This document shows, piece after piece, positions 766-28,497 of a stretch of DNA of 64,000 bases (position 1 is the first letter of the stretch; each line of letters starts with the position of its first letter). Source of the DNA: Lineus longissimus (Eukaryota > Nemertea > Pilidiophora > Heteronemertea > Lineidae). The position numbers and the translations under genes are program-made. The notes under the pieces were generated by a model. It saw nothing but the letters and a program-made list of their open reading frames with translations. It ran no database searches and had not been told where the DNA came from. The stretch covers positions 15,688,001 through 15,752,000 of the forward strand of contig NC_088319.1 in assembly GCF_910592395.1 (NCBI RefSeq). The letters run 5' to 3'.

Positions 766-2861
766 ACAAGAATTTACATGAATATTTCTTTTAATTATTT
801 CTTTACAGTATCACTCTCATCTATACATGCTTGTCAACAGAGATAAAAACCTGTCCCTATATTATAGAAACACCCCTATATCAAGCCTAATCTAAACATG
901 AATATACAATGTGACGTTCATCCAGACTTCCTACACGCAAGTAGTTGCCAAAATGGCGCCGCGAACCACAAACTGTCGGCAAAGCTACTCTCGTCGATAA
1001 GTAGGCCATCTTAACCAGAACGAGGCTTTCCTAACTAAAGTTTGCACTAAAAGTCTTCCGAGATCAGCGCAAAGGATTCAATATACCATGTACGTTTTGT
1101 AGAGAAAGCCAAAGACAGGAAACCTGAACAAATTTAAGAGGAAAACAGCAGATTTTTTATGAATATTTCGTGCTTTAATAGTAATCCATCCATTGGGATT
1201 TTGAATCTATGGACCGCAGATAAAATCGGCAAGGTGCCAACACGACTTTATAGACTACATTATAGTTACTAGCAAAGGACCTAATTCGTACCTTGAGTCG
1301 TGAAGGCCCACTGCCGAGTTTACAGTACAAGTACAGCCAAGAGTGAATAACAATGAAGAACCGTCAGTCGGCAGCAGAAATAGATTGATTCGTCGGACTA
1401 CTTGCAGGCGAGAAGTCTTTCTACGACTCATCTAGAAATAAATACAGTCAAACGTCAGAAAGAAAGAGAAAATGATAAAACATGTAATGAGTTACATAGC
1501 AAGGCTAAGTGCGAGTTGGAGTGACAAGAAAACACAATTTTACGAAGGTACCACATCCATATCACACACAAGGCACAGCCGCCAAGGTTGCACTAGAATA
1601 GCGACTGAGAAAGTGCAGCCAATTATGAAGTCGTGACGTCTCCTTCACGAAATCACAGTAACGGACACCACATTTTGTAACCGCTACAGTAAAGATGCGA
1701 GCCTTGGCATTGTCACAAGAATGAACAATAAAAGGGGACATGCATGGAAAGGAGGCCGCTTTGACCAACTCCGAATCGTTCCAATCGCGTTTTTGCTCCC
1801 ATTTTCGTTTCTTTCTAAGTTCTCTTGGTCACCTCTGCATAACCCTTGTCGCGGATGACACCGTTATGCGAGTCCACCGTTGTGAGAGCAGTCCAAAACT
1901 GATGATGTAGTTGCATGGTAATGACGATGAGAGACGTATGAAATGCTTGGCGAATGGCAAATGGTAGGTATATTCATGTAATGACGATACAGTGATACAC
2001 ATGAAACATGTATTATGTCCATAACCACATTTCACAAAGCGGGGCCTTCGGCTTTCTTCAAATGCTTACGCCGTATACCTATGCCTATGTAAAGTGAATT
2101 TGAGATTGTTCAAGACACGCTGAATACAAATTTCAATATTGAATGAATGTGGCTTGCAACGGTACGGAATGAAGGTAATGCGCCGAGTGGTAAGAGGAAG
2201 GGGACATGTTTGGAAAAGGATGAGAATATTCCGTCTGTTTGATTTGGTAGTTGTTTCCATGAAAATGACACAGGCCACAGCCGTAACGGCACCACAGCAG
2301 TCTGCCTTCTGGCATTGAGGTACTATCGTTAGCAACTTAAACTGCGTGGCATGGATTAACGTGACCGTACTTCGAAAATGATTCTCGGAGCGATATGCAC
2401 ATGATGAATGATGATGATGATTATGCCAATGCAGATGATGTTGATTATGCTGATGAAGTTGGTTGCAATCGTTACTGATGAGATATATATAATGTCAGTA
2501 TCATTTTCGTCACATTTATGAGATGAAATGATCCTGAGCGATATACATAAAATCAATGTTAGAATGGAAACTATGCAGATTTCGATATTTGGCATACACG
2601 CTGTACATCGGTACTCCTCGAGATGCAATCCTCCTCACGCTGTAGCTCAAATATCATAGACAGTATGAAAACAAGAGATATTCTACTGACCAAAAGCAAC
2701 CCTCGAAAGTTGCCAGAATGTCAATTCTAACACTATATGCATTTCTGATGTTCATTCGTCTTTATGTTATCCTTGATGATAATGAGAAACGGACGTGAAT
2801 AAATGGTAGTATATGACGATGTCTCTGCCTAGTGATGAATTTGGTGATTGCTTATGCCCAT
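766..2861. other. Non-coding stretch, no recognised gene
   Basis: Only short frames without recognisable protein motifs are present on either strand. A short degenerate GAT-rich tract occurs near 2398-2460, the forerunner of the larger tract downstream. Confidence 0.5.
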
Positions 2862-3170
2862 GACTTATGATGATGATGGTAAGTATGATGATGACAATGA
2901 TGACGATAGGATGGCGATAACTATGATAATGATGACGATAGCGATAGCGATGATGAAGATTGCGATGGCGTTGGCGATGGCGATGGCGATGGCGATGGCG
3001 ATGGCGATGACTATGATGACGATGATGAAGATGACGACGATGACGATTACGTGATGATGACGATGATGACGATGATGACGATGATGAAAATAAAGATGGC
3101 GATGATGACATGATGATGACGATGATGATGATGATGTTGTTGTTGATAATGATGATGATGATGATGATCC
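2862..3170. repeat. GAT-rich simple repeat with a GGCGAT hexamer block
   Basis: Degenerate (GAT)n/(GAC)n runs cover most of this stretch. Near 2961-3009 the unit becomes a hexamer, ggcgat, repeated without interruption. The long low-complexity frames on both strands (poly-His/Arg and poly-Ile/Ser on the minus strand, Met/Asp/Ala on the plus strand) are translations of the repeat and not genes. Confidence 0.9.
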
Positions 3171-5156
3171 AATGACGACGAGCTATGAATAAGAGACTTG
3201 TATGACAATATAACAAGACATTTTCTGTATGATAATGCATTAATGTAACAGTCGCAGGGGTCAAGGTGCCGTTATACACTCCGGACGAATTGACATTGTC
3301 CCCATGCCTCCCCTGGAAGATATACACTATGACGAATGGGGCTTTCTCGGGAGACCATTATAGTCGGAAGGAAGGGGCAACGAGTTTTAAAGCCTTGCAT
3401 GTCGTTATGGAGCTCTTCCTTTTCTATAATCGAATTTTAGGTTCTGCAATTATGCAAAAACACATATCAATATTAACTTTCAACATTGTTGTGGTTAACA
3501 CCGATATAGTGAAAATCTATTGTCTGATCACGTTGACATGTCAGCTGGTTACTGTGCAGCGGCAATCTTTATTTCGTTTTTTTCTGGCCCATACAGAAGA
3601 ATTTGCGCGAACGGCGTACAATGTACTCTTTCACTGGTTCAAACAAGTAGAAATCAACCCACGGCGTCGATACATTTGTGCAACATGAACAACGATATAC
3701 AGCAACAGAAAGGAAGCTTACATTATCAGCAAGCACTTATAAACTATACTTTGTACAATGTCATGGTCATGTTAAAGAAATGAATAACGATATTTACACG
3801 AAGACTGAATGGACAGACAATTCAAACCTACAAATGTATTCCTAAACATCCGCCAGGATTCATTCTGAACCAACGGAAGTACTCTGTCCCTAACCTCCCA
3901 TCGTTGGTGTAACGGAGTCCGGCGGATATTTTAGAAAATATTTAATTGCTTCTAAATTGCATTGCACACGAGCGACTAAACCCGAAGGCGACCTCAGAAA
4001 ATTGCCCATGCTGTTTGATACAAGACCTTTTGTCGTTCGGACGGACGCCCTCGCTTTACTCACCCTTGCTCGCTATACTTTAGACGACAGATTGGTAGAC
4101 CAGCAGAGATTATTATAAGCAGCAGAGTTGGACAATGATAGGCACTTTGCATTGCTTTTGATATTGACATCTTAACCACATCTCCTACGAACGCACTGTC
4201 TTTGCAGTGTCGGTCTCCGGTCCCAACGGGTCCTGCTCAGAGTAACAACTACTGAAGGACTGATTCCGGGTGCGGGTTGTCACTTGACACGTACAGCTAC
4301 ATCATACAGTTTGTTTATGTAATACATGCATACTCTCGCTTGCCTTTTACAGGAGTTGTGTTTAACTAAATGGTAATTGGAAAATAAAAGGTAACATGAA
4401 GCATGGCTTTGCAAACCAACATGATTAAAATATGGTGCTTTTTCCAACTTGAAAATGAAAAAATTGCATCAAGAATAGACGACAACTTATAATGAGAATC
4501 ATAAAAAGATCACAGTTTATCTGTAACACCTCTCGTCCAGTCTTGTCCCGATCCTCGGCAGCGAAAATAAGGAACTACTGTGGACGTGGATTCAATTTTA
4601 ACACTCACATATCTTAATTCTTACAACAGCATAGAAATATAACTATTTTTCACTAAAAATGTAAACTACAATGTACTTCGACCGCTACACAGTGACCAAT
4701 TGGTAACTTTAAACGATATGTTGCCAATGTCACCCTAATACCTTGCCATTGGTAACATTAAACTAAAGCCACCATGATAAAATTCCCATGGTAACATGGA
4801 ACGATACGTTGCCGTGGTCATTATGATTACATCCCCTTGGTAACATGTCACACCAAAGAAATGGTCACCATCTGACAAAATAACAAACTTGTCATTATCC
4901 CTATCATTGCATAATGCGATATCATTTGAGTATTTACATATGTATATACATGTTGGATGTGCGAGATGACTTGACGTTAATCACAGAAGTGAATCAGGAG
5001 ATAAGCGTGCTGCTTACAGGTACGAATCTAATCTTACTGAAGATAGTTTAAATTCTTTAGAAAATGATAAACTCCATTTGGCTTAATTTTCAAACGATTT
5101 CTGGTCTTTCACCCTGATGCGACATGTCTGAGCCAGTCTGATCAAAACATGTTCAG
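3171..5156. other. Non-coding stretch containing a degenerate local repeat
   Basis: No gene was recognised. A 140-codon plus-strand frame at 3266-3688 has no motif and is probably accidental. At 4697-4880 four diverged units each begin with a form of ttggtaaca and recur roughly every 40-50 bases. Confidence 0.4.
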
Positions 5157-6242: not shown

Positions 6243-9200
6243 CTATCTGTTCAGGTTTTTCTTCTTCTTGGATTCTTTTTTGGGCGCTGCCTTTTTGCAC
6301 AAGTGGTAGGCAAAGACATCGATCACTTCAAACACTGTCAGGGCACTAGCTCCAACAAACAGGCCCATGGAGCCCCCGATATCACCTGTAGATGGATGGA
6401 AAGGTGGAGTATCAATTCAACATATTCATCAGCTACACCATCTTTGAGGCCAGTGATCACCTCCGTGAAAATGATGGATAGTTTGCAATGGAAAATGTGA
6501 CTGAGTTAGGCAACGGTTAACCCATACGTCAAATGGAAAAGCCATTTGTTCAACTACAGCAAATTCGTAGTAATAGAACGATATGCACGTAGCCTACTTC
6601 AGGTTTCAATGAGAATACGACCTAGGAGACCACCGGGTGTGTTTTGTACTTACATAATAAGGCAAAAATATCATACGCCTTCTGCTGCTCGACTAGCTCA
6701 TAACTAAGCTTCCGGTAGAAAACGTCCATCTGTAAAAAGTTTTCTCTGCAAGAGAAACAAAGCGAAAGCATAATATCCGAGCATCTCTCAGCAATTCACA
6801 GGCGGAATAGCAGTGCGGTAGCTATTTGTTTCAGTGTGGTGAAAAGAGGTTTTGATGAGGCCTGGATTTCCGAAGAGGTACGTTCTTGTATCCGCCAAAC
6901 TGACGACCTGGCTTTTTACAACGTTTTGTACTAGAAAAAAAGATGCTTCATCTGGGCTCAAGCTTAGATGCCAGTATGATAGCAATGCCAGTAGCTTTTA
7001 AGGTTCATAGGGCGATTATTTTTGACTTTTCAGCAAATATCTCAGCTCATTGATCCTCTTAACTCTTTACTCACTGAAAGTGAAGTCTATTTTTCACACG
7101 TTCAATTTGACCAACTGAACATGGTAGCGAAGATCATGAAAGAAAAGAATAGTGCCAAGAATAGAGCATAACAGTCCAGTTTACAAGTCAGTAAGCTCCC
7201 TACATCACTCAAGTTGATATGCTATTTCCTTCCCTAGTCGTCACTGTGAGCAGGACCGATAATAAACACATTAAAATAATACGCAACCGATATGTTGACA
7301 AAAAAGGATTGCCCAAATGCAACAATTAGTCGTTACTTTGTGGTGAAGTATAAAAAGGTGAAATTTAAAGTGAAAATGAAGGATAATATAACAACTGACA
7401 TATAATAAGGGAAAGTTTAAGAGAAAACGGGCCACATTTCGAGCACAAAAAGAAGAGAATGCACACGAGAAAGCATTCCGAAATTCTGCCAGAGAAAAAA
7501 TGATGAAAAGTTTCGTGTAGATGTTGTATTTCTGAGGAGTGTCTGCAAAAGTTAGCAAGAGCTGAATTTATTTATAGAAACAATTGCAAAGTATTCAAAA
7601 ACGCGTTTGATGAGTTCAATTGATTTATCACTTTCCGAAAGCAAACAAGACAGGATGCGGTACCGGTGCTTCCTCAAAGGACACCTTGTGATTGGCTCAT
7701 TTGAAATTGCCAGGCCGGTGATGCAGGATATAAAACTTCTGATTGGATGTCATATCCGCGAATGGGGTTTAACTGATCTGAGAAAGAAAACCCTCAACTT
7801 ACTTATAAAAATTCGTGTCCAATTTGTTGGCACTGATGTATTCCTGGAAATCATCTGACATCTTCTCGAAGGCTCTGAAGAAGCTGTTGTCCCTGTTCCC
7901 CATCACAGTGCGCAAGTCATAATGATCTCGCACGTGCTCGTAGAGTTTCGTTGTCTCATTTGTGACATTTGTGTAGCTGAGGACCCCCCACGACGTGTTG
8001 GCGTACTCGTAATAGGGTTTCGAGTCCACGTCATCTAAAATTGTCTTCCAAATTCTGAATGTCGCATGTTTGAATTTACTCCAATTGTCGTAAAGCGTCT
8101 GACTTCGCGTTCTTACTTCATTAAAGAATAAATCTAATTGCGTTATATGATTTTTGACGTCAGTATTAATAAGCACCTTTGCAATTGGCGTTTTGCCAGT
8201 TGTTTGGTTGTTAAGGTAATCACGCGCTTGCTTCAAAGCAGATGAATATTTTGGCCACACAGTGTCCCGGATGTCACGGCATTTATTGACTAAGCTCTCT
8301 AGGTTCAACTTCATATCAAAATATATTTTGTTAAAATCTTCTGTCAACTTCCGGAAATGCTCGATTCGCTCTTGCATCTGCTCCACAGGAAATTCGATCA
8401 CTTCCGCTAACGTATTACTCCGCGAGCCGAAGAACATCTTCGAGAGAAGTGTGAAATTCGCCGCCAGCTCCATAAATAATCCGCCATTGAATCTGTTTTC
8501 TAAATATGCATCTTCTAGAATGGAGGAGAGGTTATGATAAATATAAATGAGCGATTGTAAATCCGTGAAGGTCCGGTTCAGGTAATATAAAGAATATGAA
8601 TTTTCGCGAGACACAGCGGTATGCAGTAAAACTTTAGGCACGATAATTCTGCCCTCTTCCTTTTCTTTTTGTACCCCTTCAACGACGAACTGGTACTCAA
8701 AAATGGGAACGCCATTTGCGTAAGCGTCCTTGGCGTCCGTGATGTTTTGTAAAGCATTTTGAGTGAGTAGCCGACGGGCGTCAATGTCTATTTTCAGCAG
8801 ACTGTAAATCATGTTTCTCGTTGCAGTGTCATTCGTCTTCAACAATGTGCGCACCTGGTGCTCGCATTTGAAAATGAAATCAAAATAGTTGAGTGAGACC
8901 TGCGAGAATGTCCGTTCGTCCATGGCCATAACGCCTCGGAGGAAATTCTTCCGGACAACGAATTCCTGGAAGGCATACATGGTGGCTTTCCTTTTACAAA
9001 TGTAATCCATACTGTCTAAGATGTCTTTCAATGCCGCCACGTTACCGTCTAACAAGCTCTTAAACTCAACATACAACATCTTCTCAATGTCGTCTGCCGT
9101 TGTCGCTGCTGCGTTGATTATAGTAGAGTCAACTTCAAAATAGCGATCCTCAACTTTGTGTGCCGTATCTCTTGCGTTTATGTAACGTTCTAACAGTGCA

Positions 9201-12200
9201 TCTGTATCCACGATTTTCAGCATTGTGTCGACATCGAAATTCGACGTCGCGCTATAGCTAAAGTTTGGTTCATAAATGGTTGTACTGCACGGGAGCGGGC
9301 ATTTACATATATCCTTACCCGGGTGATTAAACTCCTCTGAAACGATACCAGCACCGAAATCAGTCCCATCTTCATTAATTATGTAATTAAATTTGACCTT
9401 GAATTCGTCTGAAATGAGACCAAAACCGGGAAATGCCCCATCAGCTACATGCGGTTAAAAGAGCACATGCATACGAGTTGAAATGCATCAGGATGCACGG
9501 ATTCCCATGTCTGTGTGTTTCATATAATTCGGAGGACCGTCTTCTGAGTAGGCCTAAATGCCATGTTATCTGATATTTCCTTTTTTATTGTTTTCGATCT
9601 TGACATTCTTGGTCAGATTTTTTGGACTGATCTGTAATGGACTACGTTCAATGACGTCACCACTTATGAACCAACCAGGTTGCAGTGACTGCTAGTTGCA
9701 ATAGTGTTTAGTTTCGGTATGGCATCGCCTTGTTGGGTAAATAGGCTAAGTCTCATTTCTCAGGAATTCTGTTATGACGCAGATAAAGAATGGCAGTATT
9801 GGTCAAACATTAGTGATTAATGGAAAAATTGGTCGATGGTGTTTAACTCACTTTTTAATGCTTTCTTCATGTCAGATTTTCTCTGATGATCAGGAGATGC
9901 TGACCTTCCAGATGATAATCAACATTTCCCCAATGGAGTTAGTTTGATAGACCAAAGGGGAAAATAACTGTTATTAGTTGGAATGACAGTCGCAGGGCTA
10001 TATTATGGGTGAGCCTAACGACATCTCCAAATGATGGATCATCTGGTCGTTAGTTTACAATCAAGACGGCTATTACTTGCCGGATATAAACCTCAGGAAG
10101 TGTAAAGATCCTTATCTGCCTTTTCAGAGATGCCGAGGTTTCTCAGCAACACAATGCGCTACGGTCACGTGGTAAAAGGTCAAATAACATCCATGGATTG
10201 ACCAATAATGCACAAACTCATCTGTCACATATTGGACACTAAAACATAAAGACCAGAAAGCAACGTCATGCATAAGTTAGACTCACTTAACCAAAGCTTT
10301 TTCACTTCACAAAAGGTTTGAGAGACTACCTACCCAATGCAATTTAAAGCGTTAACTGGAAGTGCTGACTTGAGTAAACACGAAGATATGCAACGCTCCG
10401 AGCAGGTTGTTTTAGTTTTCCATTTCACTCCTAGGTGGAAGAATCTGCTTCGTACACTCCTGCCACCTAGGAGGCAACTCATGAACAAAAATTGTTTCAT
10501 CTGCGAAGAGAAGCTGATATTTTCTGGTTACTAAAATCAATATATCTGGTTAAAAAGTGACTATTTTTGCGGGAAGTTTTGTTTTATGTGAAGTAAGCAC
10601 CTTATTACTTATCACAGAAGGAGCATTTTTACTCCGCCTGCAAGGTTTTTGTAACAAATTCAAAAACTAAGACCCTTATTTGACTTAAGCTCAGGCAGGG
10701 CCAAGTCAGTCATATCTTATCCAAACAGCAAAGCCCTTGAATTTAACAAAAACACTCTGGGTTGGTTTTGTGCGTTTTGTGGTGGTCTCAGGAAAGGAAT
10801 GGAAATGTTAAAAGTCAAACGCAATCCAATGAAAATCTAACTGAATCTATATAATCAACAATTAAACATGCTAATTTTGGACTACTTAGAAGACGGTCAT
10901 TTGAAATCTAAAATCAAATGGAAAACTGAGGTTACTTAACTTCGTGATTTCTATGGGAACGCGACCCTGAAAAGAGCGACAGTCGGTCCCTCAAAGCTCT
11001 TACAAGCAGCGAAGGGCTGGCTATGTGCTATCGAATATTTTCTTTTCCTTTGAAAAGGTAAGCTTTGCTGGGTAATTCTTTAAAAGGAATGATCATCTTA
11101 CAGGATTAAATTCGATTTTAATTTATAATTATGATGAAACTTGGTAGCCTATTTTACAAGTATTGTAGTCTATCAAGTTTTGGTAATCTTTCGTCTTCAT
11201 AAATGTTCCAGGAGATTTGGTTATTGAGTGAAGTCCCGTATATTCGCCTTGCTTCGGGCGAGTTTTCTACCACCAGTAGGAAAAGCACCGAAAAATAGCA
11301 AGTACTTTAAGGAATTTGTTTAAATTAATGTGAAAAACGAATTACACAGTTGCCGCTAGCCTTTAACATGTTTATTATGTTTTGAAAAGTCGTGCGTTTG
11401 CGATTTCTGGGCGGGGATCGGTGGGTGTGTGTTGGGTGAGCGTACATCGTGCGTGTTGTAGGCTAATCAGACATGGTGATGACCAAGGACGACATCAAGG
11501 AGGAGAGCGGTTGAGGGTCACACCGGATTTTTCATTCACATTATGCATGCAACGTTCACTGCATGGCATCTCATTTCAGAGCAACAGGCGTATTTTACGT
11601 TCTACCATATCCGCTTATGTTCATGTTCGACTCTGTTCACAGGCGGTTATGGATCGAAGATCAAAACATTGACTTTCATTGTGTAGGCTTTCAATGTTGT
11701 AAGGCACCTCATTTTCATTCATGTTTCTCACTTTTGATAGAGACGAAATCAATTGCCTACACAGTAAAATACCCAATACACTGTCAGGAGTAAAATGCAG
11801 TACTCAATTACTCCGGAATGACGCACTCCCGCGCTCCTCTTTGGGACGAGGCGTGGGCGGGGACTGTCTTTGAGTGTGGGGCATCTGAAAGAAAGGTTCA
11901 ACCTCGAGTTACGGCAAGGGACCTAAATCTGCAAAGGCAAGATGGTTTGTGACGCATTCTTCCACTACCACATATTCTATCATTCAATGATTTGACATCC
12001 AGAATTATCATACACGACCCTTACCAATGCCTAACATGCCTTCCGACACTTTCTTGTTTCATTTATCATCAACACCAGCACATTAACAAATGCCATAGCA
12101 GAAAAGGTCAATGAAACTAGCTAAGACTCAAATACTCTCCTCTCACTTTTATAACAACAGTGACAAATGTAATACGAGTTACATGTAAGGCTCTAGTTCA

Positions 12201-15200
12201 AATGCAGGATTTGAAGACTTTCGATTCGGGTGTCTCAGAAAGTAACTGAAGTAGCAGAAACAACGGGTAACTTCAAGTTTAGCAAAAACGAACTCATTTT
12301 CGATTTAAGAGAATACTTCGCCATGAGTGGATGATTGCATAACAAATTTTCAGACTCGAACAATTTTAGGGTAACACATTCATATTTGCAAAAAGAATAA
12401 TGTAAATTTTCATGCGTCGTATGAAACGTACCAAGAATGGTTTTCGATAAATGCATGGCACACATGTATGCATGAAAGGTAAGCATGCTTTGAGGAGATA
12501 CCGGCTCTCGTGCAGGTCTGAATTGTTCAAGGTACGTGTAGTATATTTCTATAGCTATACTCACTCTCAATTTCTGGTTTTTATTTGATGTATTACAACG
12601 AAAGAACGAATGAATTATGAGCTTTGCTAGTTTATCGTTGACCAGGTTGAACATGCCTCAATACGATGTTACACCATCACCAATAGCAGTTATTTAGATA
12701 ACTATTTACTCAAGCAGAGCTTTATTGTGTAAATACATTGTATACATTAGTTCCAAAATTCACGATTTCCAATCTTCGAAACAGTTTTAGTTGTTATTTG
12801 AGGTACCATCCTGACTCGGCACACACTCTGGACGCAGAGGATCGGGCGCCTCGTCTCTTCCCTAATATAGGAAGACCATGATCATCAGGATTACTCGGGA
12901 TAGAATGATATTGGACTTGTGCATCGTTAACTTTCTTTATGGTTGTAGAATGTAAAACGGAAACATCTGTCGTAATGATTTCAAAATCATCATATTGACT
13001 TCAGAGTCGTCATTCTTCTGAAGATTGCCTTGCTGATTTGTAGCATAACCAAGAACCATTGCATGTTTACGGACAGACAAAAAGAAAGAAATGTACGCAC
13101 CTTTGGCATTGAGGACGCAAGAGAAGTACTGGCCCAGGTTACACACAGGGGGAACGCCTGGAAGAAAATACAGATTTATTAAGAAGACGAATTCAAGAAT
13201 AGCCTACGTGACTTTTTAAATTTCGTTCAAGGTCCGCTTCCAACTGAAAAAAAAATCGCCTTTCGGGACCAATAAACTTCCACGTTGCGTGACCAGGGGT
13301 GACGTCAGACACGTCACGGTCGAGGTAGCCGAAATTGCAAATCCTGTATTCCCTATATCATTATAACCAAAAGTGATGCCTTCAGAGGACGATTGCCATT
13401 GGCGATCATAACGGCATGATTGAGGACTCACTCTTGTCGACATTTATACACGGGAATGACAATCCCATTTGCTTCATGCTGATTACATACCCTTGCAAAA
13501 TTACACAACTTTTAACATTTGCTTAAAGTTGTGAAGGAAAAGAAGGAGAAGAAGACAAAGAAGACAAAGCTGTACGTACCATCTTTCTGTGGCATATAGA
13601 ACATGCGACAGCCGCACCGCTTCTCATAGAAATCCTTCATACATTCTAGTTTGCATCCAGTTTCTGAATAGACGGGGAAATGCTCCAGGACGTTACTCCC
13701 TGAGCAGTTACCATGGGGACCAGGAAGATATTTCATCTAAAAAACAATAAGGAGACAATGTATGCTGAGTCTTAGCAATTACGTTTTTAAAGGGGGTCCA
13801 TAGGAAGGAACCATTATGCATTGATCGCACACACTCGGCCTCGTGTGACTTGTGAAAAAATGAACAGCATGCACTGTAAGATAACAGGGACACCTATCCG
13901 TGATTTCTTGTAACTTAATCTGGCCCATTCGGCTCCTAAACCTATTCTTTCCTTATAAACATGCATTAATGAAGTCCACCTTGAAGTGGAAGCACCCTAC
14001 CAGAGAGGATGTCTTCAAAGCAAGACAAATTTGAATGCAACACCACAACATTTAAGAACCTGTGGTACCTACCACAAGCACCTTGACTCCTATAAAAGTA
14101 TGTGTTCCCGTGGCTACAGCTTGGCCCAGCTCATAGACCAGAGGCACCTCGTCCGTGTCGTAGAGCAGGACCTTCAGGCCCGCCGAGTCGTGCGGGCCAT
14201 GCATGTACTCGTATTGTTCTACATTTACTGTGAGACGGAGACCATGTTCCGTACCTGAAAACAAGATTGACCGAGTGGACCTTAGAGTAACCAGCCTATA
14301 GGTGCAACAGTACGTAGCCTCATGGCAAAGACCCTCGCCTCAGAAACCAACCAATGATAACAGAGTGTAACTTTCAAACTGGCCAATAAAACTGTGCGTG
14401 TATGTGCTCTCTCCGTTCTACATTCATGAAGGCCAACCGAGAGGCGGAAATTCATTTTGGTCATATTTTGAAAGTATTTATCACTTTTAAGGGTGATTGT
14501 ATTAGAGTGGTAAATGATAACTAAGAATACTGTCTATCAAATACAAATGTAGTTATGAGCTCAAATGCACCGAGGAAAGAGATTTTTTAAGTAAAAGTTA
14601 CGATGTGTTCATCAAGCAACCGAAATTCATATTTTCACCATTCAACAAAAGCCCACCGATGTACCCTAGTATCAGTCACGACTTGACATTTAGCAGCGCC
14701 ATTTGGGGTTAAGGAACCAGCCTGAGTTGAGTCACGATGTCATCATCAGATCACGCCAGTGGCCAAATCAATCCATGACCTTGGCTGAGACGCTAGGTGA
14801 TAGCTGATATTATTTGATGTATGGCCCAATTACCAGCGTCTGATATTTCATTGTAATAATACAGGCGGCATTCGCGCGCACGGCAATGAGAGGTGGCGCC
14901 AAGATTGCTCGGCTGGGGCTCCCTAAAGTCTGCTTAAAGGTTTGCTTTGGCCCAAAAACCCGACCTCCCTGCGGAATACATGTATAGTTACCTGTGTCTG
15001 ATATGTACAAAGGATGTGCCTGGTCTCCGTTGAAGGCGTAACAAACACCGTGATCTGTCAAAATCATGGTGAAATTTTCATGAGAGCAAGGAGAGCCATC
15101 CCAAAAACATCTGCAACGAGAAATGGAGTGTAAATGTAATGTTTTGGGAAGAACTCTGATAAACCGCGGGGACTCCAGACTTTTCACCGACAAACAGTGG

Positions 15201-17824
15201 AAATATCAGCGGATGCGCACTTTATTAAGAGTTCAGTGGTTGAGAGTGTGTAATGGTCTCACAGAGTTTCAATAGTCAATAGCCAATAGACGATGTGTAT
15301 TTGACTTCTTGACCCTTTGGGTCTTTGCCCCGTTTCCCACATTGCTTGTCCTCACTCTCAGGTCACGGATTCTCACCGAGTCAATGTTGTTTCCTAATCG
15401 CAGAACACTTTAAGACAGGGAACGCTGAATCAAAATTTGACATGACATCCATTGGGGGTTTGTAATCAATATCCACACTCATGTCATTCTGCCAACAACT
15501 TGTAATCGCTCAAAGAGCCTTTGCCGAAAGCTTTCCTTTCGTCATTTCATATGACCACCTCATCCGGTCTGGATCAGATAGACCTGAGATAAGTCGCGCA
15601 ACATGGCCACCGTATTTTCAAACACAATCATATCGAGTAAGTCATCAATTCCATAAGTGTCCGTACTACAAAGAGTAGTTGATAACGCAGATAGCGCCTG
15701 GGACTTGGCGGTGCGGTCATTGAATGACGAAGGAAGGCGTCGGGGAGGAAATAATATCAGAAAGAACTCCCTAATAAGGTGTATTCAGGCCACCAATATA
15801 TCACTAAGGAGAGGAGCGTATTATTTGGCCTTTTGGCTCACGTGTCCCCAATTCCAATCCCTTCACTTACCTGACTATCATATCCTCCTTTAGATGCGCG
15901 GTAGGGAGATAAAGATCTTCGAAATTCACCTGAGAATAGTTATTTCTTGTCAAGTTATCTAACTTTTCTTGTTTGTCTGGTTTCTCATTGTATATCTCTT
16001 CTAGAAGATTTAAATAACCTAACCTGGCAGCCTCGGTTATCCTGAAAATATAAAACGTAAACATACATGACGTGGTAAGGTAAGGTTTATTAGTGAGGTT
16101 TCGCAACGACCCGTTTAGGCCCTACGACGACGTTTATCTATTGTGTGAGTTTACCTGAACAATAGATAAACGTCGTCGAAGGGCCTAACCGGGCGGTTGC
16201 GAAACCTCACAATTATCTAATTTTGCCCCTTACTTTGCAGTAAACGAAATCTTCACAAGCCCAATACACGGTCTATTGTCATTATACAAAGCCCGCTCGC
16301 ACCTAGGCATTAAGTCCTATTGTTCTTTTGTCTGATCAAAGGGTTGTCAGGGCAAATCTTGATAACATAGACCCCACAAACAGCTTTCATGGGGGTCAAT
16401 ACGACTAAAGCTTCAAGGCCTGATAAATGTTATGTTACATTGGAGACTTCTGGCAAATGTTCAAGACTTAAGCCCGCAGCACACTAGCCGCCAACTTTGG
16501 CGACAAGAAGTGTTCAACTGACGCCTCTCGACGCCGAAGTTGGCGGCCAGTGGATCCCGGTCAGAGCACACCTGCCCAGAATCGGCGTCCAGTAGCGTCT
16601 TTTCCGCCACTTTAGGCTGCCATTTTGAAATCATGTGACATCAAAACGCATACTGATTGGCCAGAGCCTCGCCGCCGACGCCAATTCAGGCGGCAATCCG
16701 TAGCACACCTGGCTTCTTCTTGCGTTCAAACGCGGCGACACGCGTCAAAAATCAAACATGTTAGATATTTGGCGTTTAAATGCGGTAAGTGGCGGCAAGT
16801 CGTGTTCGCCGAGGCCGTTCGTAGCAGACTAGGGATTTTTCAGGCGTTCAGGACTCTTGCGGCAAAAAACGCCTGTGAACGCCGACGTTGGCGGCTAGTG
16901 TGCTACGGGCTTTAGAAGTGCAAAGAATATGGCCAAATGCCCACTTGGTGATAATTGAGTCTTAGTAACATTTGACAACAATCATGACCATATAATAAAC
17001 AACCCGATCTTTGCCATCGACCGACATTAGCCCAGTGAACTTAAAGACAATTTATCACCAGGCTAATGCAGGAATGGATATCATCTCCAGTCTTTGCCAT
17101 GAAAGTAACCTCTCTCTCACTGGGATTGCTCAATTATCAATAACTCGTATCTACATGATCCACTTTTCCAATTAGGTTATTGTATGTCAAAGCCATTGTA
17201 TCTATAATTCATTCTTCAGCAACGGAAAAATCATTCACCATGATAACCATGACATGTTTTATACCTTTTTTCACATTTAGAAGTTTAATGGCTGATCGGG
17301 GAGCTGTAGCCGGTTGTTGATATTGCAACCGCTAAGGCCACAGAAGTATGGTTCTACTCCGTAGTCTTGGTTGATATGAAAGCACGAATCAGTAATGCGT
17401 CTGCTGAGTCTGTAGTCAAACGCGGCATGTACTGCAGCGGAATGTCTTTTAATATGATTGTTGTCAGTAGTGTGTCGTTTTGATCTTCATCTGCCTGCGG
17501 CGGAACTGCGTCGAACAAGCATGTAAGGCGCCGTCTGATTGGCCATTACCAGATTTAAGGTAGAAAAATCTCTGAAGAAAGTGGCGAAGGCCGTTAATCA
17601 AGTGTAACAGGTCGCTATCATTTCGACAGCTACTCCCCCGATGTGACGTTACTTACCTGAAAGCGTTCTGATTGCAAATGGCGACTGCAGGGAAGCGGAT
17701 GGTTTTGTTGAAGTTTATCTCGACGTTGACCGTCACGGGGAATCGGCAGTAAAAAATGATTCGATCAACGATTTGGAAGACCATGATACCAGAGCAGGTG
17801 CAGATAAGAAGAAGCCACAGCAGT
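6243..17824 (-). CDS. DEG/ENaC-family sodium channel with a giant ectodomain insert (nine exons, 5' end missing)
   Basis: Exons on the minus strand: 17657-17824, 15871-16041, 14992-15110, 14073-14254, 13580-13736, 13101-13157, 7803-9336, 6654-6745 and 6243-6385. All introns are GT..AG, and the joined frame is uninterrupted for 873 residues. Seen in order: TM1 (residues 1-22, LLWLLLICTCSGIMVFQIVD); the post-TM1 motif FPAVAICNQNAFR (41-53); finger/thumb motifs CFWDG and CYAFNG; HGLRLTVNVEQYEYMHGPHD; GTHTFIGVKV; CGCRMFYMP; the thumb cysteines CKCPLPCSTTIYEP (295-308); then an extra domain up to about residue 790; the pre-TM2 motif ENFLQMDVFYRKLSYELVEQ (from 797); and TM2 with GASALTVFEV (838-847). 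GAS is the family selectivity-filter motif. The tail is short and lysine-rich and stops at 6243. Members are trimeric, usually amiloride-sensitive Na+ channels of 500-650 residues; this one would exceed 900. Its ligand or gating mode cannot be read from sequence. The N-terminal exon with the HG gating motif was not located. Confidence 0.93.
7803..9336 (-). other. Insert exon of the DEG/ENaC channel: about 440 extra extracellular residues
   Basis: This single 1534-base exon starts in normal family sequence (the CPLPC thumb motif, then YEPNFSYSATS). It then runs about 480 residues before the next exon resumes normal family sequence at ENFLQMDVF. In ASIC-type channels the same interval is about 50 residues and forms the knuckle helix and strands leading to TM2. 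The extra part looks largely alpha-helical, has no membrane segment and few cysteines (CKRK, KCEH, NKCR), and carries nine N-glycosylation sequons (NDT, NIT, NRT, NLS, NFT, NQT, NTS, NVT, NET), as expected of an extracellular domain. Codons run without a stop or frameshift, so it appears functional. I do not recognise the fold. Confidence 0.88.
9337..13100 (-). other. Large intron of the DEG/ENaC gene
   Basis: This 3.8-kb intron separates the VCNLGQYFSCVLNAK exon from the insert exon. The donor is at 13099-13100 (G|GTGCGT) and the acceptor is tttcag next to 9337. A 139-codon minus-strand frame at 12235-12654 has no motif or family resemblance and is treated as accidental. A GA-rich run at about 13530-13570 lies in the neighbouring intron. 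Confidence 0.7.
16093..16210. repeat. Fold-back element with about 51-bp inverted arms
   Basis: Arms 16093-16143 and 16160-16210 are near-perfect reverse complements (outer ends gtgaggtttcgcaac and gttgcgaaacctcac) around a 16-base loop. It lies in the first recognised intron of the DEG/ENaC gene, right beside the acceptor of the exon 15871-16041. It is a short non-autonomous fold-back element with no coding capacity. Confidence 0.8.
16471..16911. mobile_element. 441-bp MITE, PIF/Harbinger-like, copy 1
   Basis: Terminal inverted repeats begin agcccgcagcacactagccg and end with the near-complement cggctagtgtgctacgggct. The element is flanked by a 3-bp direct duplication TTA (16468-16470 and 16912-16914). 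A 3-bp TWA duplication is the hallmark of PIF/Harbinger elements. The interior is built from variations of ggcggc and gtagcacacctgg and encodes nothing. A second copy of exactly the same length lies at 47633-48073. This copy sits in an intron of the DEG/ENaC gene. Confidence 0.88.
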
Positions 17825-19384: not shown

Positions 19385-19424
19385 GGCAGCAGTATACATG
19401 TGCAGATATTTATGATTATAATAC

Positions 19425-19430
19425 TTTATT
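19425..19430 (-). promoter_or_regulatory. Polyadenylation signal AATAAA, GPCR copy A
   Basis: AATAAA on the minus strand lies 76-81 bases past the stop codon at 19506. The same signal occurs at the same offset in the other three copies. Confidence 0.6.
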
Positions 19431-19505
19431 AACGACAACATTAACAATTATTGTCATTTGAGGCGTGTTTGTAGTGTCCAAGGGCGTTCCCACTATAGTT
19501 CCCTC

Positions 19506-21910
19506 TTAGTTTCTGCATGCGCAGCATGAGAACATCTGTCGAAGTCTCTGCTTGACGTCATCTCGATACTTCTTTCCGCCCCCTATACAGTAAAGGTAAA
19601 AGTTGATGCCATAATTCAACTCCCAAAACTGGATAATAATAAAATGTTGGCAATAAAATCTCAAACTCCAATACTCTTCTTCCATTTTGTAGTGTACCCT
19701 GACCGGCGGGATCACACTTATGACGTCATACAACCTGAAAGGAATTGACGTCACGACGTATGCAATACTAACAAGAATCAGCATTCTCGTAAAGTAGGCT
19801 GTTTCCTTCTCACGGGTCTTTTGGCCATCTTTGTTCACACCCATCTTGCCCGTTTCTTTGGCAGCTTTACGTAACACATAGATGATCCAGAGATTACAGA
19901 AAACGATAATACAGAAAGGCGCGATGGTCCCGATTGCTAGTTGATAAGCGTTGCCAAGGACTTCGAAGTCGGGGTCATCTGGCACTTGTATTTTTACCAT
20001 TCTTGTACCTGAAAAGATGAAAACAGTTCAACCCAAGAGATACGGGGTAAATTGCTTCCATCTGGGTACATGTAGTCGCCTTCCTCTCATCTGAACGTAC
20101 AGAGTCAGTAGTGAAGTTTGCAGCTACACGTTTTCAGCTACGAAACGTTGTAGCATAAATCACAGAGTCCCCCTGGATTTTAACTTAAATTAGCAAAATC
20201 AATTCAATTTAAAAACCAGAAGAAACCATGATGGAAATTGGTACAGTAATTTCTTTCTTGTAAAAGTAGCTGAATAAATATATTGATGTGCCTGTCTAAT
20301 TGGATCTATTTCTTTTTCAGTTTCTACCGGTGGAATATTGCATCCCGAGAAAGACATACACGGAAGAGCTAACACAATTGATAAGACTTACTGCATATAG
20401 GGAGGTTAAGCAAGCGTACGAAAACGAAAACGAAGCCGAAAATGTCATTGAGCATAACATGTCAGCTTCTTTCTGCGTTTTCGTCTGCGTAATTCATCGA
20501 TAGTTTTTGAATTCAACACCATAAAGCTTAAATTCCATAGTCCGAGTCTGATCCCTGTTTGCATGTAGCCAATATGCATTCGAGACCGACGGCACCGACT
20601 TCAACCGTGACCGGGGCAAAATAACTTCACAAGAAACACGAGGCACTTGTGCTTCCAATTCGTGACGTCATGACAGGTCAAGGTCACTGATGAAGCTTCA
20701 AGTTGGCGGTAAAAACGTTTCTCCTACTAAGACATTTTTTGTGCAGTTAATGAAGGGAACTAAGAGCTCATATTTCATTAAGAACTTCACATATCATCAA
20801 ACGTTGATTGGAATGATGCCACGTCTTCCGTGGCGTTTGCCGATCTTGGTGAAATAGCCAGCTAAAGAAAGCACAAGACAGCGCGAGTGCCCCGTTGTCA
20901 TGATGCAACAAGGGGTGATCGGGTGCACTTCTACGCTCTGCTTCGCTCGGAATCAAAAGTTGGGTCCAAGATCGGCAGTCACCTCCAACTACAACCTAAT
21001 TGTAAGTGTCTTACCTCCCGTGTATTCACTCTCGACGATCTTAAACGTGAAGAACATGTAGACATTAATGCTGCAGAAGAATACAAAGATGGCGGCGATC
21101 GTAATACATGCACGGCGTGATGTACAGAGCCTGGGAGCGGACATGGGGAACCGCACGACGATCAGCCTATCTATGGTCATGGCGGCCAGATAGAAACCCG
21201 AAAGGATTGCCGAGGTGTACGCCAGGTACCATATCCCCCTGAAATAGAATCGTCGAGTCGGGGTAAATGATATTTTGAGAAGCGCAACATATTTGAAATT
21301 TCAGAATGTTTTAAAGTGGGACTATACGCAGATGCTAGCCTAAGGGTTAAAGTTGGTAGTCTTGAAGTGACTAGAAGACAATTGGGGGCCTGAGCTAGTA
21401 TTCCAAATAAAAGCGGTATGGCTAGATGCTAGATGACGGCGATAGTAACACTGCACTTCTGGTTGTCTGTCATCACGATCTCGAAACCCATATTCATGAA
21501 TGTTTCTATGACGGACATCTCGACGGAAACCTATCAAAATTTGCGTAAACCTTTACTCACTGCATGGCAAACTCAGAAGGTGCGTCCTCGACAGGGGCCC
21601 AGGAGATCCAGGCTAATGCCCATCCGTGCGTTATCGTTACATTGGAGTCAACAACAGCCAGAGCTGTCATGTAATTACAAGTAGAAATCTTCCGATTGTC
21701 TTTCTGCACAGTCACCAGAATTGACATGACGTTCCCGAAGAGAGCTAGAACCACCACCACAGCGAATACATATTGTGTGAAGATCTTGTAGAGGATACGA
21801 AGGGTTAGAACCGCGGGATCTACCTCCGTTGTAGCGGTCCAAAAAACGACGGTGGATTCGGCATTGTCAGCCATGTTGACGGCAGCAAGCTCCGTTTCCT
21901 TCTCCAGCAA
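19506..21910 (-). CDS. Class A (rhodopsin-like) GPCR, copy A
   Basis: Exons 21561-21910, 21015-21238 and 19506-20008 (minus strand) join with GT..AG introns into 358 codons plus stop. Visible landmarks: TM1 LFGNVMSILV; TM2 with the sodium-site Asp (ALAVVDSN); TM3 end AMTIDRLIVV (DRY replaced by DRL); TM5 proline in IGTIAPFCII; TM6 VTSIPFRLYD; TM7 NYGINFYLYC (NPxxY replaced by NFYLY); helix 8 KKYRDDVKQRL; and a C-terminus FSCCACRN whose cysteines may be palmitoylated. The conserved TM3 cysteine and its ECL2 partner are both absent. Copy-specific residues include GIWYLAYTS, TITHGWALAWIS, GTRM and AYFTRM. A TATA-like CATAAAAG lies at 21986-21993. The two candidate starts are MLEKETE and MADNAE; I used the upstream one. 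The ligand is unknown; the family resembles lophotrochozoan orphan peptide or chemosensory receptors, which is inference. Confidence 0.93.
20327..20502 (+). other. Intronic antisense frame preceded by an acceptor-like site
   Basis: On the plus strand, inside GPCR intron 2, tctatttctttttcag is followed by an open frame starting FLPVEYCIPRK. The corresponding frame recurs at about 23321, 26317 and 29314 in the other units. In copy A it is cut short by a stop (CVIHR then stop), whereas copies B-D continue to HQYFLNSTP. Amino-acid differences between copies are frequent for the length, unlike the GPCR exons, so it is probably not a maintained gene. It could be a captured exon fragment. Confidence 0.25.
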
Positions 21911-22418
21911 CTGACTTCAAAACCAAACTCTACTGACTTCACGAAAAAATGGCACTGCGCGCAAAAAACCGCTGGGAAATGTTGTCTTTTATGCTTCAAG
22001 GGGCTCGTTCTTGCTAATGCTTGGTAATGTTGGCTTGGTTTCTTTTTCTGGCCAAGTATGTATGTACTTTGGACTTGGCTTTTTCCGTCGCCAGGTATGT
22101 TACCAGAGAACTACGATGCAAAAGTATACGCAGCGCAGTACGAAACGAATCATTTGACGAGGCTTATCCGACGTACATCACCTGAACGGTGAGCTAGATG
22201 TAGAATGCATGAAATCAAATATGATATTACTGTTATATCAACTGGATATAAAACCCCCAGGGCGGGTCGGCGCAGGAGTTTTTATGACGACGAAGATGAG
22301 GACGCAATGATTGTAATTGGACTAGTTATGCAACAAAACAGCACGGACAATCGGCATACGAGATACAAAGATGTAATGGGCAGCAGTATACATGTACAGA
22401 TATTTATGATTATAATAC

Positions 22419-22424
22419 TTTATT
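22419..22424 (-). promoter_or_regulatory. Polyadenylation signal AATAAA, GPCR copy B
   Basis: AATAAA on the minus strand, 76-81 bases past the stop codon at 22500. Confidence 0.6.
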
Positions 22425-22499
22425 AAAGACAACATTACCAATTATTGTCATTTGAGGCGTGTTTGTAGTGTCCAAGGGCGTTCCCACTATAGTTCCCTC

Positions 22500-24906
22500 T
22501 TAGTTTCTGCATGCGCAGCATGAGAACATCTGTCGAAGTCTCTGCTTGACGTCATCTCGATACTTCTTTCCGCCCCCTATACAGTAAAGGTAAAAGTTGA
22601 TGCCATAATTCAACTCCCAAAACTGGATAATGATAAAATGTTGGCAATAAAATCTCAAACTCCAATACTCTTCTTCCATTTTGTAGTGTACCCTGACCGG
22701 CGGGATCACACTTATGACGTCATACAACCTAAAAGGAATTGACGTCACGACGTATGCAATACTAACAAGAATCAGCATTCTCGTCAAGTAGGCTGTTTCC
22801 TTCTCACGGGTCTTTTGGCCATCTTTGTTCACACCCATCTTGCCCGTTTCTTTGGCAGCTTTACGTAACACATAGATGATCCAGAGATTACAGAAAACGA
22901 TGATACAGAAAGGCGCGATCGTCCCGATTGCTAGTTGATAAGCGTTGCCAAGGACTTCGAAGTCGGGGTCATCTGGCACTTGTATTTTTACCATACTTGT
23001 ACCTGAAAAGATGAAAACAGTTCAACCCAAGAGATACGGGGTAAATTGCTTCCATCTGGGTACATGTAGTCGCCTTCCTCTCATCTGAACGTACAGAGTC
23101 AGTAGTGAAGTTTGCAGCTACACGTTTTCAGCTACGAAACGTTGTAGCATAAATCACAGAGTCCCTCTGGATTTTAACTTAAATTAGCAAAAATAATTCA
23201 ATTTAAAAACCAGCAGAAACCATGATGAAAATTGGTACAGTAATTTTTTTCTTGTTAAAGTAGCTGAATAAATATATTGATGTGCCTGTCTAATTGGATC
23301 TATTTCTTTTTTCAGTTTCTACCGGTGGAATATTGCATCCCGAGAAAGACAAACACGGTAGAGCTAACACAATTGAGAAGACTGGCTGCATATAGGGAGG
23401 TTAAGCAAGCGTACGAAAACGAAAACGAAGTCGAAAATATCATTGAGCATAACATGTCAGCTTCCTTTTGCGATTTCGTCCGCGTAATTCATCAGTACTT
23501 TTTGAATTCAACACCATAAAGCTTAAATTCCATAGTCCGAGTCTGATCCCTTTTTGCATGTAGCCAATATGCATTCGAGACCGACGGCACCGACTTTAAC
23601 CGTGACCGGGGCAAAATAACTTCACAAGAAACACGAGGCACTTGTGCTTCCAACTCGTGACGTCATGACAGGTCAAGGTCACTGATGAAGCTTCAAGTTG
23701 GCGGTAAAAACGTTTCTCCTACTAAGACATTTTTTTTGTGCGGTTAATGAAGGGAACTAAGAGCTCATATTTCATTAAGAACTTCACACATCATCAAACG
23801 TTGGTTGGAATGATGTCACGTCTTCCGTAGCGTTTGCCGATCTTGGTGAAATAGCCAGCTAAAGAAAGCAAGAGACAGCGCGAGTGCCCCATTGTCATGA
23901 TGCAACAAGGGGTGATCGGGTGCACTTCTACGCTCTGCTTCGCTAGGAATCAAAAGTTGGGTCCAAGATCGGCAGTCACCTCCAACTGCAACCTAATTGT
24001 AAGTGTCTTACCGCCCGTGTATTCACTCTCGACGATCTTAAACGTGAAGAACATGTAGACATTAATGCTGCAGAAGAATACAAAGATGGCGGCGATCGTA
24101 ATACATGCACGGCGTGATGTACAGAGCCTGGGAGCAGACATGGGGAACCGCACGACGATCAGCCTATCTATGGTCATGGCGGCCAGATAGAAACCCGAAA
24201 GGATTGCCGAGGTGTACGACATGTACCACATCCCCCTGAAATAGAATCGTCGAGTCGGGGTAAATGATATTTTGAGAAGCGCAACATATTTGAAATTTCA
24301 GAATGTTTTAAAGTGGGACTATACGCAGATGCTAGTGTAAGGGTTAAAGATGGAAGTCTTGAAGTGACTAGAAGGCAATTGGGGGCCTGAGCTAGTATTC
24401 CAAATAAAAGCGGTATGATGGCTAGATGCTAGATGACGGCGATAGTAACACTGCGCTTCTCGTTGTCTGTCATCACCCGCTCGCAGCCCTTATAAATGTT
24501 TCTATGACGGACATCTCGACGGAAACCTATCAACATTTGCGTAAACCTTTACTCACTGCATGGCCAACTCAGAAGGTGCATCCTCGGCAGGGGCCCAGAA
24601 GATCCAAGCTAATGCCCATCCTTGCGTTATCGTCACATTGGAGTCAACAACAGCCAGAGCTGTCATGTAATTACAAGTAGAAATCTTCCGATTGTCTTTC
24701 TGCACAGTCACCAGAATTGACATGACGTTCCCGAAGAGAGCTAGAACCACCACCACAGCGAATACATATTGTGTGAAGATCTTGTAGAGGATGCGAAGGG
24801 TTAGAACCGCGGGATCTACCTCCGTTGTAGCGGTCCAAAAAACGACGGTGTATTCGGCATTGTCAGCCATGTTGACGGCAGCAAGCTCCGTTTCCTTCTC
24901 CAGCAA
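22500..24906 (-). CDS. Class A GPCR, copy B
   Basis: Exons 24557-24906, 24012-24235 and 22500-23002 (minus strand) give 358 codons with the same splice sites and phases as copy A. Seven-helix landmarks are identical (GN in TM1, VVDSN in TM2, DRL, IAPF, SIPF, NFYLY, CCACRN). Copy-specific residues are NAEYTVVFW in the N-terminus, TITQGWALAWIF in the TM2/ECL1 rim and GMWYMSYTS at the start of TM3. The TATA-like CATAAAAG is at 24982-24989, 76 bases before the start codon, at the same spacing as in copy A. No stop or frameshift was seen, so it is likely functional. Confidence 0.93.
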
Positions 24907-25419
24907 CTGACTTCAAAACCAAACTCTACTGACTTCACGAAAAAATGGCACTGCGCGCAAAAAACCGCTGGGAAATGTTGTCTTTTATGCTTCAAGGGGC
25001 TCGTTCTTGCTAATGCTTGGTAATGTTGGCTTGGTTTCTTTTTCTGGCCAAGTATGTATGTACATTGGACTTGGCTTTTTCCGTCGCCAGGTGTGTTACC
25101 AGAGAACTACGATGCAAAAGTATACGCAGCGCATTACGAAACGAATCATTTGTAGAGGCTTATCCGACGTACATCACCTGAACGGTGAGCTAGATGTAGA
25201 ATGCATGAAATCAAATATGATATTACTGTTATATCAACTGGATATAAAACCCCCAAGGGCGGGCGGGTCGGCGCAGGAGTTTTTATGACGACGAAGATGA
25301 GGACGCAATGATTGTAATTGGACTAGTTATGCAACAAAACAGCACGGACAATCGGCATACGAGATACAAAGATGTAATGGGCAGCAGTATACATGTACAG
25401 ATATTTATGATCATAATAC

Positions 25420-25425
25420 TTTATT
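25420..25425 (-). promoter_or_regulatory. Polyadenylation signal AATAAA, GPCR copy C
   Basis: AATAAA on the minus strand, 76-81 bases past the stop codon at 25501. Confidence 0.6.
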
Positions 25426-25500
25426 AAAGACAACATTACCAATTATTGTCATTTAAGGCGTGTTTGTAGTGTCCAAGGGCGTTCCCACTATAGTTCCCTC

Positions 25501-27903
25501 TTAGTTTCTGCATGCGCAGCATGAGAACATCTGGCGAAGTCTCTGCTTGACGTCATCTCGATACTTCTTTCCGCCCCCTATACAGTAAAGGTAAAAGTTG
25601 ATGCCATAATTCAACTCCCAAAACTGGATAATGATAAAATGTTGGCAATAAAATCTCAAACTCCAATACTCTTCTTCCATTTTGTAGTGTACCCTGACCG
25701 GCGGGATCACACTTATGACGTCATACAACCTAAAAGGAATTGACGTCACGACGTATGCAATACTAACAAGAATCAGCATTCTCGTCAAGTAGGCTGTTTC
25801 CTTCTCACGGGTCTTTTGGCCATCTTTGTTCACACCCATCTTGCCCGTTTCTTTGGCAGCTTTACGTAACACATAGATGATCCAGAGATTACAGAAAACG
25901 ATAATACAGAAAGGCGCGATGGTCCCGATTGCTAGTTGATAAGCGTTGCCAAGGACTTCGAAGTCGGGGTCATCTGGCACTTGTATTTTTACCATACTTG
26001 TACCTGAAAAGATGAAAACAGTTCAACCCAAGAGATACGGGGTAAATTGCTTCCATCTGGGTACATGTAGTCGCCTTCCTCTCATCTGAACGTACAGAGT
26101 CAGTAGTGAAGTTTGCAGCTACACGTTTTCAGCTACGAAACGTTGTAGCATAAATCACAGAGTCCCTCTGGATTTTAACTTAAATTAGCAAAATCAATTC
26201 AATTTAAAAACCAGCAGAACCCATGATGAAAATTGGTACAGTAATTTCTTTCTTGTAAAAGTAGCTGAATAAATATATTGATGTGCCTGTCTAATTGGAT
26301 CTATTTCTTTTTCAGTTTCTACCGGTGGAATATTGCATCCCGAGAAAGACAAACACGGAAGAGCTAACTCAATTGAGAAGACTGACTGCATATAGGGAGG
26401 TTAAGCAAGCGTACGAAAACGAAAACGAAGTCGAAAATATCATTGAGCATAACATGTCAGCTTCCTTTTGCGATTTCGTCCGCGTAATTCATCAGTACTT
26501 TTTGAATTCAACACCATAAAGCTTAAATTCCATAGTCCGAGTCTGATCCCTTTTTTCATGTAGCCAATATGCATTCGAGACCGACGGCACCGACTTCAAC
26601 CGTGACCGGGGCAAAATAACTTCACAAGAAACACGAGGCACTTGTGCTTCCAACTCGTGACGTCATGACAGGTCAAGGTCACTGATGAAGCTTCAAGTTG
26701 GCGATAAAAACGTTTCTCCTACTAAGACATTTTTTGTGCAGTTAATGAAGGGAACTAAGAGCTCATATTTCATTAAGAACTTCACTATCATCAAATGTTG
26801 ATTGGAATGATGCCACGTCTTCCGTGGCGTTTGCCGATCTTGGTGAAATAGCCAGCTAAAGAAAGCAAGAGACAGCGCGAGTGCCCCGTTGTCATGATGC
26901 AACTAGGGGTGATCGGGTGCACTTCTACGCTCTGCTTCGCTATGAATCAAAAGTTGGGTCCAAGATCGGCAGTCACCTCCAACTGCAACCTAATTGTAAG
27001 TGTCTTACCGCCCGTGTATTCACTCTCGACGATCTTAAACGTGAAGAACATGTAGACATTAATGCTGCAGAAGAATACAAAGATGGCGGCGATCGTAATA
27101 CATGCACGGCGTGATGTACAGAGCCTGGGAGCAGACATGGGGAACCGCACGACGATCAGCCTATCTATGGTCATGGCGGCCAGATAGAAACCCGAAAGGA
27201 TTGCCGAGGTGTACGACAGGTACCACATCCCCCTGAAATAGAATCGTCGAGTCGGGGTAAATGATATTTTGAGAAGCGCAACATATTTGAAATTTCAGAA
27301 TGTTTTAAAGTGGGACTATACGCAGATGCTAGTCTAAGGGTTAAAGATGGAAGTCTTGAAGTGACTAGAAGACAATTGGGGGCCTGAGCTAGTATTACAA
27401 ATAAAAGCGGAATGATGGCTAGATGCTAGATGACGGCGATAGTAACACTGCGCTTCTCGTTGTCTGTCATCACCCGCTCGCAGCCCTTATAAATGTTTCT
27501 ATGACGGACATCTCGACGGAAACCTATCAAAATTTGCGTAAACCTTTACTCACTGCATGGCCAACTCAGAAGGTGCGTCCTCGGCAGGGGCCCAGAAGAT
27601 CCAAGCTAATGCCCATCCGTGCGCTATCGTCACATTGGAGTCAACAACAGCCAGAGCTGTCATGTAATTACAAGTAGAAATCTTCCGATTGTCTTTCTGC
27701 ACAGTCACCAGAATTGACATGACGTTCCCGAAGAGAGCTAGAACCACCACCACAGCGAATACATATTGTGTGAAGATCTTGTAGAGGATACGAAGGGTTA
27801 GAACCGCGGGATCTACCTCCGTTGTAGCGGTCCAAAAAACGGCGGTGGATACGGCATTGTCAGCCATGTTGACGGCAGCAAGCTCCGTTTCCTTCTCCAG
27901 CAA
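25501..27903 (-). CDS. Class A GPCR, copy C
   Basis: Exons 27554-27903, 27009-27232 and 25501-26003 (minus strand) give 358 codons. The third exon encodes a protein segment identical to that of copy B. Copy-specific residues are NAVSTAVFW in the N-terminus, TIAHGWALAWIF near ECL1 and GMWYLSYTS at the start of TM3. The TATA-like CATAAAAG is at 27979-27986. The frame is intact. As in all copies, the TM3/ECL2 disulfide cysteines are lacking. Confidence 0.93.
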
Positions 27904-28416: not shown

Positions 28417-28422
28417 TTTATT
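28417..28422 (-). promoter_or_regulatory. Polyadenylation signal AATAAA, GPCR copy D
   Basis: AATAAA on the minus strand, 76-81 bases past the stop codon at 28498. Confidence 0.6.
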
Positions 28423-28497
28423 AAAGACAACATTACCAATTATTGTCATTTGAGGCGTGTTTGTAGTGTCCAAGGGCGTTCCCACTATAGTTCCCTC

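Follow-up and report, generated by a model that had tools for sequence, protein, structure and literature searches.

Within a 64,000-nucleotide stretch of the genome of the ribbon worm Lineus longissimus (NC_088319.1, positions 15,688,001 to 15,752,000; hereafter the window), nine coding exons on the minus strand, from 17824 to 6243, encode a DEG/ENaC channel from the first transmembrane helix (TM1) to the stop codon. It is well supported that this protein, P0001, is a member of an old lophotrochozoan DEG/ENaC subfamily, in which a domain of ~480 residues, inherited with the channel, stands in place of the ~20 knuckle residues between the palm strands β10 and β11. DEG/ENaC channels are known for a single plan of palm, thumb, finger, knuckle, and β-ball; a subfamily from several phyla whose extracellular part is, owing to the knuckle, roughly twice as large constitutes a natural experiment on signalling from the top of the channel to its gate.

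The seventh and by far largest of the nine exons, 9336–7803 (−), measures 1534 nt, the remaining eight 57–182 nt. It comprises the end of the thumb with the CPLPC motif (P0001 residues 366–370, 9287..9301 (−)), the post-thumb palm strand β10, and the entire insert domain (residues 384–862, 7811..9247 (−)). The exon is a single open frame with consensus splice sites, joined in frame to 13157–13101 upstream and 6745–6654 downstream, and both junctions are contained in P0001, which is public as an NCBI model named "uncharacterized protein LOC135497392 isoform X2". The window product matches residues 69–942 of this model exon by exon, with 100% identity over the part queried. An original prediction, made from the letters of the window, had placed ~495 residues between CPLPC and the pre-TM2 motif ENFLQMDVF; we measure 495, with frame and splice sites intact. 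This gap holds three cysteines and 11 N-X-S/T sequons and is as sequon-rich as predicted, the earlier count of nine being too low.

Ordinary channels of the same genome provide the scale for this length. Nine were tried as controls, eight of which, each a nearly full match to the Pfam family ASC in one frame, gave gaps of 64, 69, 70, 74, 75, 78, 81, and 96 residues, while the ninth (L029) gave no value; by the same measure P0001 has 494 residues. A spider channel (P0051) has 63. The short knuckle between β10 and β11 is thus missing from P0001 (494–495 versus 64–96 residues), yet other sequence and fold hallmarks of the family are in place. Its match to ASC (PF00858) reaches 307.7 bits against a cut-off of 23.6, the extracellular fold is ASIC-like, and the predicted model contains transmembrane helices at 66–95 and 891–941. 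The HG motif before TM1 is present in P0001 and is kept among its relatives (H in 35 and G in 37 of 38 alignment rows with letters), as is the GAS/GxS selectivity filter of TM2 (G in 45, A in 44, and S in 44 of 45 rows). The long knuckle is a within-family difference and no ground for exclusion from DEG/ENaC, and the retained pore motif, HG motif, and palm make a sodium channel likely.

The relatives of P0001 show, against the original prediction of a singular arrangement, that the insert is not peculiar to one gene. A homologue search with the channel part alone, whose query size restricted matches to proteins of at least ~720 residues and so favoured long proteins while being neutral on where the extra length sits, yielded 47 proteins including P0001. 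In 42 of the 46 relatives the extra length lies at the same place and amounts to 490–534 residues (43 of 47 with P0001, counted there as 496). The exceptions are P0024 (323), P0028 (434), P0036 (395, stopping before TM2), and P0042 (340); P0020 carries the insert and likewise stops before TM2. P0024, P0028, and P0042, from Mytilus and Mya and with 323–434 residues in the gap, represent either shortened domains or faulty gene models. Since homologues share the layout, chance is excluded as its source. Source names among the relatives include Lineus, Tubulanus, many molluscs, Lingula, Capitella, and Owenia, a few being nameless; the named ones we take to be nemerteans, molluscs, a brachiopod, and annelids, four phyla that are all lophotrochozoan. 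One relative, P0006 (929 aa), is encoded on a contig of just 3474 bases, which suggests an intron-free transcript as its source.

Alignment of the insert over 43 rows leaves few gaps, 98% of positions being filled in more than 90% of rows, and mean identity to P0001 is 23% in the insert (18–30%), 46% from TM1 to the thumb, and 63% from the pre-TM2 motif to TM2. Pairwise distances in channel and insert are correlated with r = 0.92 (1035 non-independent pairs from 46 proteins). In quick trees of channel and insert, the seven nemertean proteins form one clade (support 99 and 98), while the annelids fail to come out as a single resolved group and the deeper branching is uncertain owing to long branches. 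The distance correlation leads to what is the simplest reading of these sequences, a single old acquisition of the insert followed by joint inheritance with the channel.

The family has also expanded within L. longissimus. Used as a genome query, the insert finds at least 12 places, the window locus and 11 others, none with an internal stop; as only the best candidates are scored, 12 is a lower bound. All 12 match the DEG/ENaC thumb profile at an independent E-value of 0.05 or better (weakest L016, 0.023), 11 match the TM2 profile, and in six a simple pattern detects a GT donor that agrees in codon and phase with that of the window exon. Among 12 further regions, L021, L023, and L024 carry the insert between thumb and TM2 according to the profile, weakly so for L023 (E = 5e-5; 8e-7 with a wider profile) and L024 (4e-4; 7e-6). 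L032 duplicates L017; between thumb and TM2, L025, L026, L028, and L031 show long open frames that no profile matches; and L022, L027, L029, and L030 either lack the insert or give an ambiguous picture. The genome thus contains at least 15 insert loci among ~58 clusters of ASC matches, a rough count since clusters were set at 8 kb steps and some genes are split. L021 (G000:C19:607500-617400) differs from most other paralogues, which have the insert in one exon: its insert is spread over at least six separate frames and is therefore interrupted by introns, so that introns were gained or lost within the domain. The closest pair, L013/L017, is 53% identical, with proportions of synonymous and non-synonymous differences of 0.76 (pS) and 0.30 (pN) over 526 codons. 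With saturation at synonymous sites and restrained change in the protein, this pair shows purifying selection.

Several further arrangements were seen in this genome. L023 and L024 (G000:C5:22278500-22299499) are adjacent, near-identical channel copies with strongly diverged inserts, and nearby L025 has a similar-looking frame of 514 residues. At G000:C10:18849913-18869496, three channel matches of equal score spaced ~9.4 kb apart suggest that a DEG/ENaC gene was recently triplicated in tandem.

AlphaFold predicts the insert domain as all-helical, with a predicted local distance difference test score (pLDDT) of 90.9 and a predicted template modelling score (pTM) of 0.80; in the full-length model residues 384–862 are almost entirely helical with pLDDT ≥ 82 in blocks of ten. 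Model and alignment thus bear out the proposal that an otherwise normal DEG/ENaC channel has, at its knuckle position, an additional domain rich in helices and sequons. An 84-residue helix (417–500, 8897..9148 (−)) has a variable, stalk-like middle (431–475) and a conserved end, in which residues 476–498 (FQEFVVRKNFLRGVMAMDERTFS, 8903..8971 (−)) form the best-conserved patch of the insert. A second long helix of 62 residues covers 669–730 (8207..8392 (−)), and the N-glycosylation sequon NIT at 551 (8738..8746 (−)) is kept in 36 of 46 relatives. The insert is predicted to be extracellular, nearly all α-helical, and N-glycosylated. As its long helices combine variable middles with conserved ends, the modelled domain probably combines a stalk with a base and an outer part that are both conserved.

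Among solved structures, P0001 is closest to ASIC1 (E = 6e-56), ahead of the peptide-gated FaNaC (E = 5e-20), the ranking being one of sequence match only. Relative to ASIC1 (6ave), residues ~377–396, the knuckle of about 20 residues, are replaced by ~480. The FaNaC/WaNaC channels of molluscs and annelids match more weakly, and their modelled chains of 467–525 residues are, judged from size, too short to hold such an insert; the 505-residue chain of BASIC/ASIC5 equally lacks the space. The counterpart of ASIC His73 is presumably V99 of P0001, going by the ASIC1 alignment and the usual ASIC numbering. This position is never His in the 43 of 46 relatives with a letter there, V, I, T, L, M, or Y standing instead. 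His73 is the proton-activation residue of ASICs according to PMC9949801. Consequently, ordinary ASIC-type acid gating is unlikely, and by its sequence the insert-bearing channel is probably no ordinary acid sensor.

Searches for relatives of the insert beyond the subfamily returned nothing convincing. Across ten inserts, no Pfam family matches more than one at E ≤ 0.1 (best single E 0.0015) and no NCBIfam family more than one at E ≤ 0.01 (best 0.00056); for the insert of P0001 no match in either database attains its family cut-off. A PDB sequence profile search gives no convincing relative (best E 0.0044), Foldseek against PDB and viral models finds nothing at E ≤ 0.001, and in the VIA fold comparison the insert alone reaches at best Z 12.0, below the caution line, while the full model matches a designed bundle at Z 14.3 over residues 476–675. 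A comparison with the Tweety (TTYH) ectodomain fold gave no clear separation from unrelated rows. Of the original prediction's refuting condition, a common known domain, one half applies, the domain being common at this position among homologues, and the other does not, as the domain matches no known one in the Pfam, NCBIfam, and PDB searches. Searches of the open-access literature, judged by title or the start of the abstract and with subscription papers and preprints outside their scope, listed no paper on the insert. In the main text of four papers on lophotrochozoan channels, the word "insertion" is absent from PMC9949801, PMC9234716, and PMC9822975 and occurs once in PMC10507113. The accessible text of the last, which reports annelid and brachiopod channels, not yet characterised, that fall between TadNaC and BASIC, does not mention a large insert for these clades near BASIC. 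The insert-bearing subfamily is thus apparently undescribed so far, its proteins being already public under automatic-looking names. The name "degenerin-like protein del-10", for instance, is attached to subfamily members from molluscs and nemerteans, a likeness by name only.

What the domain does can be approached from its position. According to PMC9052164, the knuckle lies at the distal end of palm strand β10, β10 lies at the three-fold axis, and deletion of the ENaC α knuckle alters Na+ self-inhibition; the description of the insert as sitting just before TM2 and above the gate is hence correct along the chain and incorrect in space. In FaNaC1, the knuckle helix contacts the finger pocket of the neighbouring subunit and forms part of that subunit's peptide pocket (PMC11026163). 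We favour, with a probability of roughly 0.4, a putative role of the insert as a built-in extracellular sensor working via β10 and β11. The outer part of the insert, or its face toward the neighbouring finger, would bind either a partner protein or a soluble peptide or chemical signal; the resulting movement would travel through both strands to the lower palm and TM2, and the sodium-selective pore would open or close. The rapid change of the domain and its repeated duplication would be consistent with receptor-channels that have each become tuned to a signal of their own.

Several points weigh against a sensor. The full-length model has a pTM of 0.58, so the seating of the insert on the channel is uncertain, and no fold match points to a function. 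Moreover, the FaNaC1 knuckle helix moves relatively little during gating (PMC11026163); a domain at the knuckle need not drive the gate. Finally, rapid change in a helical domain would be compatible with a tether or spacer as well.

The last point leads to the main rival, which we consider rather unlikely: a mechanical tether, in which the long helical domain would be a force-bearing arm that anchors the channel to a neighbouring cell or to matrix, mucus, or cilia, with the palm strands passing the tension on to the gate. Less probable is a module for assembly, trafficking, or subunit recognition that would sort subunits into the correct trimers or stabilise the trimer and contribute little to gating. 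A genome with at least 15 diverged loci may require pairing rules, and the FaNaC1 knuckle helix does touch the finger pocket of the neighbouring subunit (PMC11026163), but a domain of 480 residues is oversized for contacts that a short knuckle already provides in ordinary channels. More doubtful still is a gating brake that would shut a leak channel or tune inhibition by Na+, H+, or Ca2+ like the normal ENaC knuckle. The altered self-inhibition after ENaC α knuckle deletion (PMC9052164) and the probable lack of ordinary acid sensing, judged from the His73 position, speak for it, while the size of the insert and the conserved patch 476–498 suggest more than a brake. A retained intron, mis-assembly, or mis-splicing, which the single unusually long exon and the record's status as isoform X2 of an uncharacterized protein might suggest, is hardly credible given conservation of sequence and size across four phyla, purifying selection in L013/L017, and an L021 insert matching in six separate frames, and the original prediction was right to discount such a mistake.

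Taking the sensor reading further, the subfamily could, more tentatively still, be an undescribed lophotrochozoan class of receptor-channels, with DEG/ENaC pores whose knuckle has become a large helical ectodomain, without a recognised relative, that serves as a ligand-binding antenna, and with a chemoreceptor-like expansion to at least 15 (by position perhaps 19) loci in the ribbon worm. Candidate receptor-channels would then be at hand in molluscs, annelids, brachiopods, and nemerteans, many filed as "uncharacterized", "del-10", or "acid-sensing ion channel 4-B-like".

The remaining exons (all on the minus strand) have matching counterparts in P0001. The first inside the window, 17657..17824, encodes TM1 and the post-TM1 strand in frame and with consensus splice sites. 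Supported likewise by splice sites, 15871..16041 encodes the finger region, 14992..15110 the end of the finger and β-ball, 13580..13736 the thumb with its Cys motifs, and 13101..13157 further thumb. For the palm/β-ball exon that begins at 14254, the probable end is 14073 (14073..14254) and not 14082, which adds three residues, as in P0001 (VKVLVMKY) and P0002. Exon 6654..6745 covers the post-knuckle palm strands (β11–β12, by ASIC1 alignment) up to the TM2 start (ENFLQMDVF), and the last, 6243..6385, holds TM2 with the GAS filter motif seen in the alignment, a basic C-terminal tail, and the stop. The product first taken to have 873 residues is indeed this channel, but the full protein has 942: residues 1–68 lie beyond the window and match G000:C12:15802950-15803213 (−), which gives a first intron of ~97 kb provided that no exon lies between.

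A simple repeat at 2767–3182 has long His/Arg/Ser/Ile-rich open frames in several frames and is by appearance non-genic. In the genome scan, the ASC family also scores above its cut-off in Thermotoga maritima, one of 14 control genomes, which is unexpected for an animal channel family. Within the channel gene's first intron and on the same strand, four head-to-tail units of ~3.0 kb at 19385–31370 (−), 97–98% identical, carry frames of rhodopsin-family G protein-coupled receptors, with PF00001 found in two of three frames tested.

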